Below are positions 34,822 to 48,130 of a stretch of DNA of 64,000 nt, one piece after another. The number at the start of each line of letters is the position of its first letter. The first letter of the stretch is position 1. Below the pieces are notes generated by a model that was not told where the DNA came from, did not search any database, and saw only the letters and a program-made list of their open reading frames with translations. The translations under genes were made by a program, and so were the position numbers. Source of the DNA: an uncultured Butyricicoccus sp. (lineage in GTDB: Bacteria; Bacillota; Clostridia; Oscillospirales; Butyricicoccaceae); contig NZ_CALWJM010000001.1 in the NCBI RefSeq assembly GCF_944381005.1, positions 186,001 through 250,000 on the forward strand, written 5' to 3'.

Positions 34822-35949
34822 TTATACGACCGAGCGCTTTGCGATAACGACCGGATAATTTTCATGACCCATCATGGTACGACCCTCACGGATGGTCACG
34901 CCGCGGTCAAGCACCATATGTGCCAGCGACGCGCCCGACAGAATACGGCCGTTTTCCATGACGATAGAGTTTTTCACCTCAGCATCCTTTTCAATCAGCA
35001 CATCGCGGAACAGGATGGAGTTTGTGACCTTGCCTTCGATGTGGCAGCCATCGGCAACCAAGCTATCACATACTTCGGCTTCATCGCCATAATATGCCGG
35101 TGCTTCGTCATAGATGCGGGTAAAGATGGGACGGGTGCGCAGGAACAGCTCATTGCGGCAGTCCTTGTCCAGAATATCCATGCTTGCCTGGAAGTAGTCC
35201 TTAGCATCAAAGACCTTCATGTTATACTCGTTAAAGACATAAGCACCGATGTTGCTTTCGGTCAGCGCACGGGTGAGCAATTCGCGCTCGAAGTGGGTGC
35301 AGTTGTGGGTAACACAGTCGGCAATCAGATGAATCAGATACTGACGAGTCATCACATAGATACCCAGTGCCGAATACTTGCACTTGCCGTCGTTGTTGTC
35401 GCCCACGCGAATATCCACGATTTCGCGCTTGCGGTTGAGTTCGCAGTAAGTCGTGAACGGATTGTCTACCGACTTCTTGGTGACAACCATCGTAACATCA
35501 TTGCCGCTCTCCTCATGGGCGCGTAATACCTCGTCTACCGGTACATTGGCAATCAGGTCGCCGTCTGCCAGCACGACATAATCAGCGCGATTCTTTTGCA
35601 GGAAGTCGATTGCACCAGCCAGTGCATCAATCTTGCCGCGATATTCGCCAGTCACCAGCGGCGAAGCCTTCTTGGAATAGGAGTACGGCGGCAGCAGGGT
35701 GATACCCGCATTTTTACGGGACAAATCCCAGTCCTTACCGGTGCCAATGTGGTCGATGAGCGACTGATACTTGTCCTTCATCAACAGGCCGATGCGGTAC
35801 ACGCCCGCATTGACCATGTTAGACAGCATAAAGTCAACGATACGATACCGGCCGCCGAACGGAACGGCTGCAACGGTGCGATGGTCGGTCAGTTCGCGCA
35901 AGTCGTTGTCGGTATCAAAAGCGATAATAAGTCCTAAAACATTTTTCAT
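34822..35949 (-). CDS. glgD: GlgD, regulatory ADP-glucose pyrophosphorylase-like subunit
   Basis: A 375-residue protein starting MKNVLGLIIAFDTDNDLRELTDHRTVAAVPFGG (first part of the nucleotidyltransferase fold). The catalytic GGxGxR loop of GlgC is absent: the equivalent reads IAFDTDNDLREL. This is the hallmark of Firmicute GlgD, which is inactive alone but stimulates GlgC in a heterotetramer. The C-terminal left-handed beta helix is present. The ATG at 35949 lies 17 bases after glgC; a longer upstream frame overlaps glgC and was rejected. Confidence 0.95.
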   Translation of the reverse strand: MKNVLGLIIAFDTDNDLRELTDHRTVAAVPFGGRYRIVDFMLSNMVNAGVYRIGLLMKDKYQSLIDHIGTGKDWDLSRKNAGITLLPPYSYSKKASPLVTGEYRGKIDALAGAIDFLQKNRADYVVLADGDLIANVPVDEVLRAHEESGNDVTMVVTKKSVDNPFTTYCELNRKREIVDIRVGDNNDGKCKYSALGIYVMTRQYLIHLIADCVTHNCTHFERELLTRALTESNIGAYVFNEYNMKVFDAKDYFQASMDILDKDCRNELFLRTRPIFTRIYDEAPAYYGDEAEVCDSLVADGCHIEGKVTNSILFRDVLIEKDAEVKNSIVMENGRILSGASLAHMVLDRGVTIREGRTMMGHENYPVVIAKRSVV

Positions 35950-35966
35950 GGTTGCGTCCCCTCTTT

Positions 35967-37178
35967 TTATTCCTGGTCGGGCAGGTCTGCGCCTGCCATC
36001 TCCTTGGCACCCAGCTTGGCATTCTTGCCAATGCGAACACCCGATGCCACGACAGCAACGCCCCAATCATCAGCAGCAACCTCGCTCGGTGCTGCACCGA
36101 CTGTTGCGCCCGCGCAGATGTGTGCGTTTTCTGCCACAATGGCATAGCGAACGGTTGCACCCTTCTCAACCACAGCACCCGGCATCAGGATGGAATATTC
36201 CACCTTCGCACCCTTTTCAATGGTGACATCAGAGAACAGTACAGACTCGGATACTTCACCGTAAATCTCGCAGCCCTCGGAAATCAGTGAGTGCATGACT
36301 TTGGACTGTTTGCTTGTGAAGTGCGGGGGCGCACCGTTGTTGCGTCCATAAATCTTCCAGCTATCATCGGTCAGATTCAGGCCAGACTTGGGAGAAAGCA
36401 AGTCCATATTTGCTTCCCACAGCGATTCAATGGTACCGACATCCTTCCAGTAACCCTCGAAGCGGTAAGCAACCATCTTTTCGCCTGCATTCAGCATTGC
36501 CGGAATAATATCCTTGCCGAAGTCGTTGGACGAAGCAGTATTATTCTCGTCGTCGATGAGGTATTGACGCAGCTTCTTCCAGCTAAAGATGTAGATACCC
36601 ATAGAAGCCAGTGTGCTCTTGGGCTGCTTGGGCTTCTCCTCGAACTCATAGATGGTTCCGTCCTCGCGGCAGTTCATAATACCAAAGCGCGAAGCTTCAT
36701 CGAGCGGCACTTCCATAACCGCAATCGTGGCATCTGCACCGGCCTTTTTGTGATGCTGGAGCATCTTGTTGTAGTTCATCTTGTAGATGTGGTCGCCCGA
36801 CAGAATCAGGACATAATCGGGGTCATACTCGTCCACAAACTCGATGTTCTGATAGATGGCGTTTGCTGTGCCCTTGTACCAATCCGAACCTTTGCCGCGC
36901 TGGTACGGCGGCAGGGTGTAGACACCGCCGCGCATACGGTCAAGGTCCCAAGTCTGACCCGAACCGATGTAAGCGTTGAGCACATGCGGCTCATACTGTG
37001 TCAGTACACCTACCGTGTCAATGCCAGAATTGACACAGTTTGACAGCGGGAAGTCGATGATTCGATACTTGCCGCCGAACGGTACAGCAGGTTTTGCCAC
37101 CTTGGTTGTCAGCACATACAGTCTGCTTCCCTGGCCGCCAGCCAGAAGCATGGCAACACATTCTTTCTTACGATACAT
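35967..37178 (-). CDS. glgC: Glucose-1-phosphate adenylyltransferase GlgC
   Basis: A 403-residue catalytic subunit. [16 protein letters not shown] is the nucleotide loop, [19 protein letters not shown] the signature that follows, [13 protein letters not shown] the metal site, and a C-terminal beta helix is present. It makes ADP-glucose from glucose 1-phosphate and ATP, the first committed step of glycogen synthesis. Strong GGAGA-type ribosome binding site. Second gene of glgB-glgC-glgD-glgA. Confidence 0.97.
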
Positions 37179-45847: not shown

Positions 45848-46807
45848 TTAGTCGAACAGAGGCGAAACCGAAACTTCTTCATAAATGCGCGCAATCGCTT
45901 CGGTAAAGACCGGCGCAACCTGAAGAACATGAATCTTGTCAATCATCTTTTCCTGCGGCAGTGCAATGGTGTCCAGCAGGGTCAAGGTCTTAATCGGGCT
46001 GTTCTGGATGCGCTCAATCGCCGGGCCAGACAGTACACCGTGGGTTGCACAAGCGTGGATTTCAGTTGCACCACCCTTTTCAACCAGCGCTTCGGCTGCG
46101 TGTACCAGCGTGCCCGCAGTGTCAATCAGGTCATCCACCAGCATAACCTTCTTGCCGCGCACATCGCCAATGATGTTCATAACCTCAGATACATTTGCCT
46201 TGGGACGGCGCTTGTCGATGATGGCAAGCGGCAAGTCGAGCTTCTCGGCAAACTTACGCGCACGGTTGACCGAACCAAGGTCAGGGGAAACAATGACCAA
46301 ATCATCGCGGTTTAAGCCAAATGTACCGGCAAAATGCGGAATGAGCACCGATGCGCCCATCATGTTATCTACCGGAATATTGAAGAAGCCCTGAATCTGA
46401 GTTGCGTGCAAATCCATCGTCAGCACGCGGTCTGCACCCGCAGTGGTCAGCAGGTCTGCCACCAGCTTAGCCGAAATCGGGTCACGCGCCTTGTTCTTGC
46501 GGTCCTGACGCGCGTAGCCAAAATAGGGCATAACCGCTGTGATACGGCCAGCCGATGCACGACGGCAGGCATCAATCATAATCAGCAATTCCATCAGGTT
46601 GTTGTTGACCGGCTCACAGGTAGACTGAATCAGGAACACGTCCGAACCGCGCACCGACTCACCGATGGAAACCGAAATTTCACCGTCAGAAAACGTGCTG
46701 ACAGTCGCCTTGCCGAGCGGCAGTCCCAGTGCGGAAGAAATCTGCATGGCAAGAGCCGGATGGGAATTACCGCAGAAAATCTTGATATTTTTACCGTGAG
46801 AAATCAT
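45848..46807 (-). CDS. prs: Ribose-phosphate pyrophosphokinase
   Basis: A 319-residue class I PRPP synthetase from the ATG at 46807 ([20 protein letters not shown]), after [49 protein letters not shown] and the PRPP loop [13 protein letters not shown] are all present. It makes PRPP from ribose 5-phosphate and ATP for nucleotide, histidine and tryptophan synthesis. It follows glmU as in B. subtilis (glmU-prs), with 82 bases between the genes. Confidence 0.97.
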
Positions 46808-46889: not shown

Positions 46890-48032
46890 TTACTTCTTTT
46901 CCTGTTCCATGCGTGCGCGGCGCTTGTCGTTCCACTCGTCGATAACGGTCTGACGTGCGCGGCCAACGACCAAAACACCATCGGGCACATCCTTTGTCAC
47001 CGTCGTGCCCGCACCGGTAAAGACGCGGTCGCCGAGCGATACCGGCGCAATCAAGTTGGTATTGCATCCAATAAAGCAATCATCGCCGATGTTGGTGTGG
47101 AACTTATGATACCCGTCGTAATTGACGATGACCGTGCCGCAGCCAAAGTTGACACGCTCACCAACCGTCGCATCTCCAATGTAGGTCAGATGCGAAACCT
47201 TGGTTCCGTTGCCGATTTCAGCCTTTTTCAGCTCGACAAAGTCGCCAATGCGGGTCTTGTTGCCAATGGAACAGCCCGGACGAATATAGGCGAACGGGCC
47301 GACGGTGGCATCCGAACCAACCGCACTTTCATAAATCTGAGAAGAATTGACCTGTGTACGGTCGCCAACACTGGCCTGTTCCAGCAACGTGTTCGGACCG
47401 ATGGTGCAACCGCTGCCGATGGTGCAGCCGCCGCGAATGATGGTGCCGGGCAAGATGACCGTTCCCGCGCCGATTTTGGCATCGGGTGCAATATAGACGC
47501 TGTCCGGTGCAAAAATCTGTACACCAGCCGCAATATGACGCATATTGATGCGGGTACACAGGCGCTTTTGCGCTTCAAAAGCAGACATGCCGTCGGTGAC
47601 GGCTACGACCGGCTCACACAGCACAGCTTCGGCAGTTTTTCCAGACGCAATGGCTGTGTTGACCGCTTCAATGAGGTCGCCCGTCCCCAGTGCTTTGGCG
47701 GCCTCAGTGCGCGCACAGACTACGGGCACGGTGTCGGGTGCAAGGCGCACGATGGCATCCGCCGCGTCACGCTGCGGCATCCGACAAACAAAAACAGTGA
47801 AGTCCGCACCGATTGCCAGATGGCTTTCCACCAGGCGCTTGTACTCGGCTGCGGTCAGTTCAGGGCAAGGTGCATCAATCAGCAGGACATGGTCGCCCGC
47901 CGTCTCCATAACACCTTCCGCCAATCCTGCTTCTGCCAGCGCGTTTTTGACCCATGCGCCTGCGCTGCGAAACAGCACAGGAGTTTCATAGACCTTTTGC
48001 GCGCCGCGCAGTATCGTCGTAATTTGGCTCAT
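46890..48032 (-). CDS. glmU: GlmU homologue with vestigial N-terminal domain; glucosamine-1-phosphate N-acetyltransferase
   Basis: A 380-residue protein, some 70-80 residues shorter than usual GlmU. The C-terminal left-handed beta helix (about 170-360) keeps acetyltransferase residues: R251 in YIRPG, K269 in ELKKAE, H281 in VSHLTY, N304 in VNYDG and K310. The linker [23 protein letters not shown] aligns with the GlmU interdomain helix. The N-terminal part (about 1-145) lacks the LAAGxGTRM nucleotide loop and is shortened; only [14 protein letters not shown] resembles the former metal site. It should acetylate glucosamine 1-phosphate but probably cannot make UDP-GlcNAc. Position before prs supports the GlmU identity. 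Confidence 0.85.
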
Positions 48033-48074: not shown

Positions 48075-48097
48075 GCCCATACCAATCCGCATATAAT
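48075..48097. other. Start of the divergent glmU / dnaD-like intergenic region
   Basis: The 311-base gap between the glmU and dnaD-like starts holds two divergent promoters (listed) and an inverted repeat TGGACA/TGTCCA (48175-48180, 48192-48197). No gene was recognised. Confidence 0.35.
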
Positions 48098-48100
48098 TAT

Positions 48101-48130
48101 ACTATAACCCCGCACGAATTTCACCGTCAA
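48101..48130 (-). promoter_or_regulatory. Candidate sigma-A promoter for glmU-prs
   Basis: On the minus strand TTGACG (48125-48130), 18-base spacer, TATAGT (48101-48106). Confidence 0.55.

Follow-up and report, generated by a model that had tools for sequence, protein, structure and literature searches.

A decayed uridyltransferase domain in the GlmU of Butyricicoccus and a candidate stand-alone enzyme for UDP-GlcNAc formation

The GlmU-derived protein of an uncultured Butyricicoccus sp. keeps a complete acetyltransferase domain, preceded by a shortened relic of the uridyltransferase domain from which the nucleotide, sugar, and metal ligands have all been lost. Bacteria make UDP-GlcNAc, a cell-wall building block, with the bifunctional enzyme GlmU, which is regarded as essential and whose uridyltransferase is supposed to be near-universal among them. 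We consider non-orthologous displacement the probable explanation: the protein, P0001, would now be limited to acetylating glucosamine-1-phosphate, its decayed domain would be a relic with no catalysis, retained for a structural role or for contacts, and UDP-GlcNAc would be finished by a stand-alone sugar-1-phosphate uridylyltransferase, our candidate P0002. Because GalU is missing too, P0002 probably makes UDP-glucose as well. The window, that is, the whole stretch of 64,000 nucleotides analyzed, comes from an assembly of 2.17 Mb that is 98% complete. The features discussed below, in the window unless a contig is named, are:

46890..48032, minus strand: P0001, GlmU-derived, 380 aa, acetyltransferase plus relic uridyltransferase domain; an open ORF
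47592..48032, minus strand: relic uridyltransferase domain, residues 1-147 (hhalign, residue table, and dN/dS)
47529..47591, minus strand: linker helix from relic to beta-helix, residues 148-168 (GlmU linker alignment; helix in low-confidence models)
46893..47528, minus strand: left-handed beta-helix acetyltransferase domain, residues 169-380 (all main catalytic residues)
48096..48130, minus strand: promoter-like hexamers TTGACG-18-TATAGT and GTGAAA-17-TATAAT, 5' of glmU (number of such sites near shuffled expectation)
45848..46807, minus strand: prs (ribose-phosphate pyrophosphokinase), the usual neighbor 3' of glmU (named from sequence)
contig C10:55927-56838 of the source genome: P0002, a 300-residue nucleotidyltransferase with no assigned function

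Downstream of the P0001 gene lie prs and a YmdB-like gene, an order shared with B. pullicaecorum and consistent with the usual glmU-prs position recognized in an earlier, sequence-only reading of this DNA. The closest named relatives, B. pullicaecorum DSM 23266 and a Butyricicoccus MAG, each show 83% identity to P0001 and the same gene order. An in-frame ATG further upstream, at 48092, is probably unused, because a Shine-Dalgarno-like AAAGGA (minus strand) precedes the ATG at 48032 and -10-like hexamers, themselves close to chance level, end at 48096 and 48101. The same window carries a glycogen cluster (branching-enzyme-like, GlgC, GlgD) on the minus strand at about 35170-37154.

Residues ~140-373 of P0001 match the bifunctional GlmU equivalog model TIGR01173 over positions 196-451 of 452 with 274.6 bits, below the curated cut-off of 366.85 bits because the N-terminal half gives no match. 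Solved GlmU structures align to these same residues without gaps. The acetyltransferase catalytic set is present as R251, K269, H281, Y284, N295, K310, A341, and R358; in E. coli GlmU, acetyltransferase roles belong to R333, K351, H363, Y366, N377, K392, and R440. Cys323 takes the position of the usual Ser, as in PDB 9DQF. With its predicted beta-helix and its Arg/Lys/His/Tyr/Asn/Lys/Arg set, P0001 can be classed as carrying a GlmU acetyltransferase domain; the model match, the structure alignment, and the residues together bear out the earlier proposal of a complete left-handed beta-helix with its main catalytic residues.

Alignment with full-length GlmU, a check suggested in the same reading, is gap-free in the C-domain and reveals a shrunken N-terminal part: ~147 residues before the linker helix versus ~229 in the GlmU uridyltransferase domain, close to the original estimate of about 145, and indeed without the LAAGxGTRM loop. 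We built a profile (A1) from 18 intact uridyltransferase domains of the same order and relic profiles from 27 N-domains of the window's family, either alone or joined by six decayed N-domains from other lineages (33 sequences). By hhalign, relic and intact domains align at E values of 2.3e-10 (27 family sequences) and 8.6e-17 (33 sequences). Because this profile-profile alignment spans nearly the whole length, the relic can be regarded as a true descendant of the uridyltransferase domain and no new domain. P0001 keeps about 5 of the 26 residues that are invariant across the intact domains (P57, H71, T79, L115, and perhaps D100), none of them catalytic. The positions of the G-loop, Lys21, Gln71, GTGHA, Asp, Glu154, Asn169, and Asn227 (numbered by the first A1 sequence) are lost or deleted, GYGR and EINSG are missing as well, and Asp53, within LIDAP of the window's relic, is Gly in three Butyricicoccus relatives. 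P0001 has no recognizable uridyltransferase active site (G-loop, Lys, GTGHA, Asp, Asn), and near-certain loss of the activity is what these residues indicate.

Within Butyricicoccus, dN/dS is 0.09-0.44 in the relic and 0.05-0.14 in the C-domain, rough values with synonymous sites near saturation. The relic is under purifying selection, relaxed yet retained. AlphaFold2 models built on few sequences (7 in the first, 4 in the second) have a usable beta-helix and a relic pLDDT of about 25-55, and the second of these low-confidence models shows a weak alternating strand-helix pattern in the relic. Relatives in the order carry bare C-domains; the relic is dispensable in principle, and its retention in Butyricicoccus would therefore most likely reflect a lineage-specific structural or contact role.

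The reduction is a trait of the whole family. Short forms are the only kind of GlmU in each of the 52 good genomes, which represent 15 genera of the family (Butyricicoccus and relatives); a GlmU match occurs in 82 of 87 family genomes overall, with short forms recurring throughout as open frames of about 310-600 codons with almost no stops. The G-loop was seen in none of the 30 family GlmU loci read, and profile searches found neither full-length GlmU nor an intact N-domain in any of the 27 family genomes of the order sample. Further, the N-domain profile has no match in the source genome at E <= 1e-20, so an N-domain that is frameshifted or detached has not been overlooked. At locus L022 (G050:C34:303536-305698), a bare C-domain frame of 240 codons lies next to a decayed GlmU frame of 449 codons, both of them GlmU-like ORFs.

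These data bear on two alternatives concerning the relic itself. That an error of sequencing or assembly, a frameshift artefact, or pseudogene decay accounts for the short N-domain has practically no probability: it is refuted by relatives, with open frames in independent assemblies from 15 genera, low dN/dS in both halves, and no detached N-domain. The sequence-only reading had likewise argued against a frameshift and had named a sequencing error restoring a full N-domain as the finding that would overturn it; the independent assemblies rule such an error out, and the loss of the uridyltransferase half that it proposed is upheld by profile alignment and residue loss. Conservation of the relic, purifying selection, and whole-length homology to the active domain would also suit a relic that is still a uridyltransferase with a rearranged active site. 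We consider this highly improbable, since nothing is left of the G-loop, Lys, Gln, GTGHA, GYGR, Glu, EINSG, or Asn, Asp53 gives way to Gly in relatives as noted above, and other lineages dispense with the domain altogether, holding a separate N-domain or P0002.

If the relic is dead, as displacement by P0002 would have it, the uridylyl transfer would fall to another protein. GlmM is present in the source genome, and GlcN-1-P is therefore made. Profile searches of this genome found no second GlmU, no GalU, and no UDPGP, and GalU and UDPGP are rejected as replacements by their absence. Other proteins of the NTP-transferase fold, named from sequence and neighbors, are GlgC, GlgD, and RmlA-like, RfbF-like, MocA-like, and IspD proteins. 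GlgC and GlgD lie in the glycogen cluster; the MocA-like protein and IspD are rejected by their own gene clusters, the former belonging to a molybdenum-hydroxylase maturation cluster and the latter adjoining IspF. A 318-aa match at C7 is a chance match to a lactate/malate dehydrogenase-like protein. The search for a separate uridyltransferase thus yielded no GlmU N-domain and one good candidate, P0002.

P0002 is 50% identical to PDB 3PNN in a whole-length match (E 8.5e-90). It matches PF00483 (36.1 bits; cut-off, 21.2), with motifs mapped by hhalign at E 1e-15, and about 16 of the 26 positions that never vary among the intact N-domains are preserved in it, among them the G-loop, Lys, Gln, GTGHA, Asp, and Glu. 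The PF00483 fold together with the G-loop, Lys, GTGHA, Asp, and Glu identifies it as a sugar-1-phosphate nucleotidylyltransferase. It scores below the cut-offs for both GalU (20.5 bits against TIGR01099; cut-off, 326.8) and MurU (16 bits against NF045761; cut-off, 250), and has no match to PF01704 (UDPGP). P0002 would be a distant fold relative of the lost GlmU domain and no orthologue. Its substrate is likely GlcNAc-1-P with UTP, making it a candidate UDP-GlcNAc-forming enzyme, and every one of the 52 good genomes in the window's family carries it.

Gene neighborhoods of P0002 relatives are consistent with such a substrate. Of the 20 loci sampled, 7, drawn from seven families, have NahK (N-acetylhexosamine 1-kinase) adjoining the relative; it was identified in one case from a 374-aa protein matching PDB 4OCU at E 8.5e-106 and is present as fragmented or partial frames at L160 and L162. 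GalE adjoins in 3 of the 20. NahK produces GlcNAc-1-P and GalNAc-1-P, and both are predicted P0002 substrates. In Butyricicoccus itself, neither NahK nor GalE neighbors P0002. One other genome carries two tandem P0002-family copies, each about 50% identical to P0002 (L164; G115:C5:80733-82552), possibly with divided substrate roles.

We next consider 295 genomes of the order, each searched for P0002 (167 genomes), the intact GlmU N-domain (86), GalU (140), and UDPGP (15). P0002 and the intact N-domain largely exclude each other: 14 genomes hold both, 72 the N-domain only, 153 P0002 only, and 56 neither (Fisher 9e-20). The exclusion persists with stratification by family (odds ratio 0.031, p 2e-17), and ten families hold both N-only and P0002-only genomes. 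On well-supported branches of a C-domain tree there are five independent contrasts, 2.7 for and 0.1 against (p 0.25, underpowered); with five contrasts only and genomes that are not independent, the census exaggerates how many independent events there were. The earlier suggestion of another uridyltransferase elsewhere has thereby gained a concrete candidate, favored by this order-wide complementarity and by the NahK neighbors in relatives.

P0002 is also anticorrelated with GalU (Fisher 3e-15, 295 genomes), and 13 of the 14 genomes with both the N-domain and P0002 lack GalU; UDP-glucose synthesis alone could account for part of the P0002 pattern. These figures, with 35 of the 295 genomes managing with GalU and no intact N-domain, P0002, or UDPGP (17 of the 35 in one family), favor the view that P0002 makes UDP-glucose only, as a GalU replacement, or serves NahK hexosamine salvage, while UDP-GlcNAc comes from another, unrecognized enzyme. 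We regard this as unlikely. GalU and P0002 occur together without a GlmU N-domain in 45 genomes; in GalU-positive genomes outside the window's family, 59 hold the N-domain only, 44 P0002 only, and 1 both, the last possibly a mixed assembly. Because exclusion is nearly complete even here, a pure GalU-replacement role fails to explain the pattern, and a salvage enzyme would not be expected to be present where the N-domain is lost and absent where it is kept. In Bifidobacterium hexosamine catabolism, a GalT-like enzyme works with NahK and GalE. This precedent would allow uridylyl exchange, in which a GalT-like enzyme moves UMP from UDP-glucose to GlcNAc-1-P and P0002 supplies UDP-glucose only; the GalE of the Bifidobacterium pathway is described in PMC6668579. 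Such exchange leaves the exclusion between P0002 and the N-domain in genomes that also have GalU unexplained, and we give it little probability.

Since 13 genomes with the N-domain and P0002 lack GalU, and 13 of the 15 genomes with eukaryote-type UDPGP lack the N-domain, P0002, and GalU, the census suggests that UDPGP occupies the place P0002 has elsewhere and that both enzymes can supply UDP-GlcNAc as well as UDP-glucose. The 35 GalU-only genomes, together with 8 of the 295 that have none of the four, imply that a further UDP-GlcNAc route exists in the order, which could operate in Butyricicoccus too. Examples of GalU-only genomes are G095, G119, and G137, of family f10.

GlmU has been broken repeatedly across the order, including by fission into separate N and C proteins, an outcome the sequence-only reading did not foresee. 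Full-length GlmU above the cut-off occurs in 37 of 295 genomes, one of them partial, and on the C-domain tree the distribution of full and broken GlmU takes nine changes to explain, of which at least two fall on well-supported branches. Some genomes pair a decayed GlmU with a separate intact uridyltransferase (G163, G146, G344); others have a bare acetyltransferase of 230-260 residues alongside a separate N-domain (G147, G114), P0002 (G206, G354, G088), or UDPGP (G172). A split of GlmU within one genome, into an intact uridyltransferase of ~250 aa plus an acetyltransferase protein that is either bare or decayed, is seen at L113/L121, L114/L122, and L112/L123. Many genomes also contain ~700-840-codon frames with an N-terminal nucleotidyltransferase domain (A1 matches of 1e-21 to 1e-26; e.g., G305:C2:30990-31538), which we take to be probable phosphomutase fusions. 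Our literature search, mostly of papers outside subscription, turned up no description of GlmU decay or splitting in this order.

For this large gut-bacterial order as a whole, we lean modestly toward the view that most members gave up the GlmU uridyltransferase, that a P0002/3PNN-like general UDP-GlcNAc/UDP-glucose pyrophosphorylase mainly replaced it, and that the dead domain lives on as a pseudoenzyme for contacts or regulation. GlmU is pursued as an antibacterial target, and a family of common butyrate-producing gut bacteria would then be insensitive to inhibitors of its uridyltransferase half. Metabolic reconstructions that record "glmU present" probably mis-model the window's family. The proposal would also provide a widespread nucleotidyltransferase family, whose structure is solved but unassigned, with its first function open to test. 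In the order, GlmU ranges naturally from intact through decayed and split to bare, a series that helps in studying how bifunctional enzymes break up.

Compared with known systems, P0001 resembles GlmU (TIGR01173) in its complete beta-helix acetyltransferase domain, catalytic residues, linker, and glmU-prs order, and differs in the shortened, ligand-stripped uridyltransferase domain. P0002 shares the G-loop, GTxHAV, and NADDFYG motifs with PDB 3PNN, presumably from Porphyromonas gingivalis, a solved structure titled "conserved domain protein" with no assigned function; the literature search, within the same scope, found no activity for this protein or the 3PNN-like family. The proposed role of P0002 is analogous to that of UDPGP (PF01704; UAP1), the eukaryote-type UDP-GlcNAc/UDP-glucose pyrophosphorylase, from which it differs in lacking the PF01704 match, UDPGP itself being undetectable in the source genome. 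MurU, the N-acetylmuramate-1-P uridylyltransferase that partners the kinase AmgK, offers a second parallel: like MurU, P0002 is a predicted stand-alone uridylyltransferase with an aminosugar-1-kinase nearby in some relatives, but it scores far below the MurU cut-off, its kinase partner is NahK-like, and in Butyricicoccus no kinase adjoins it.
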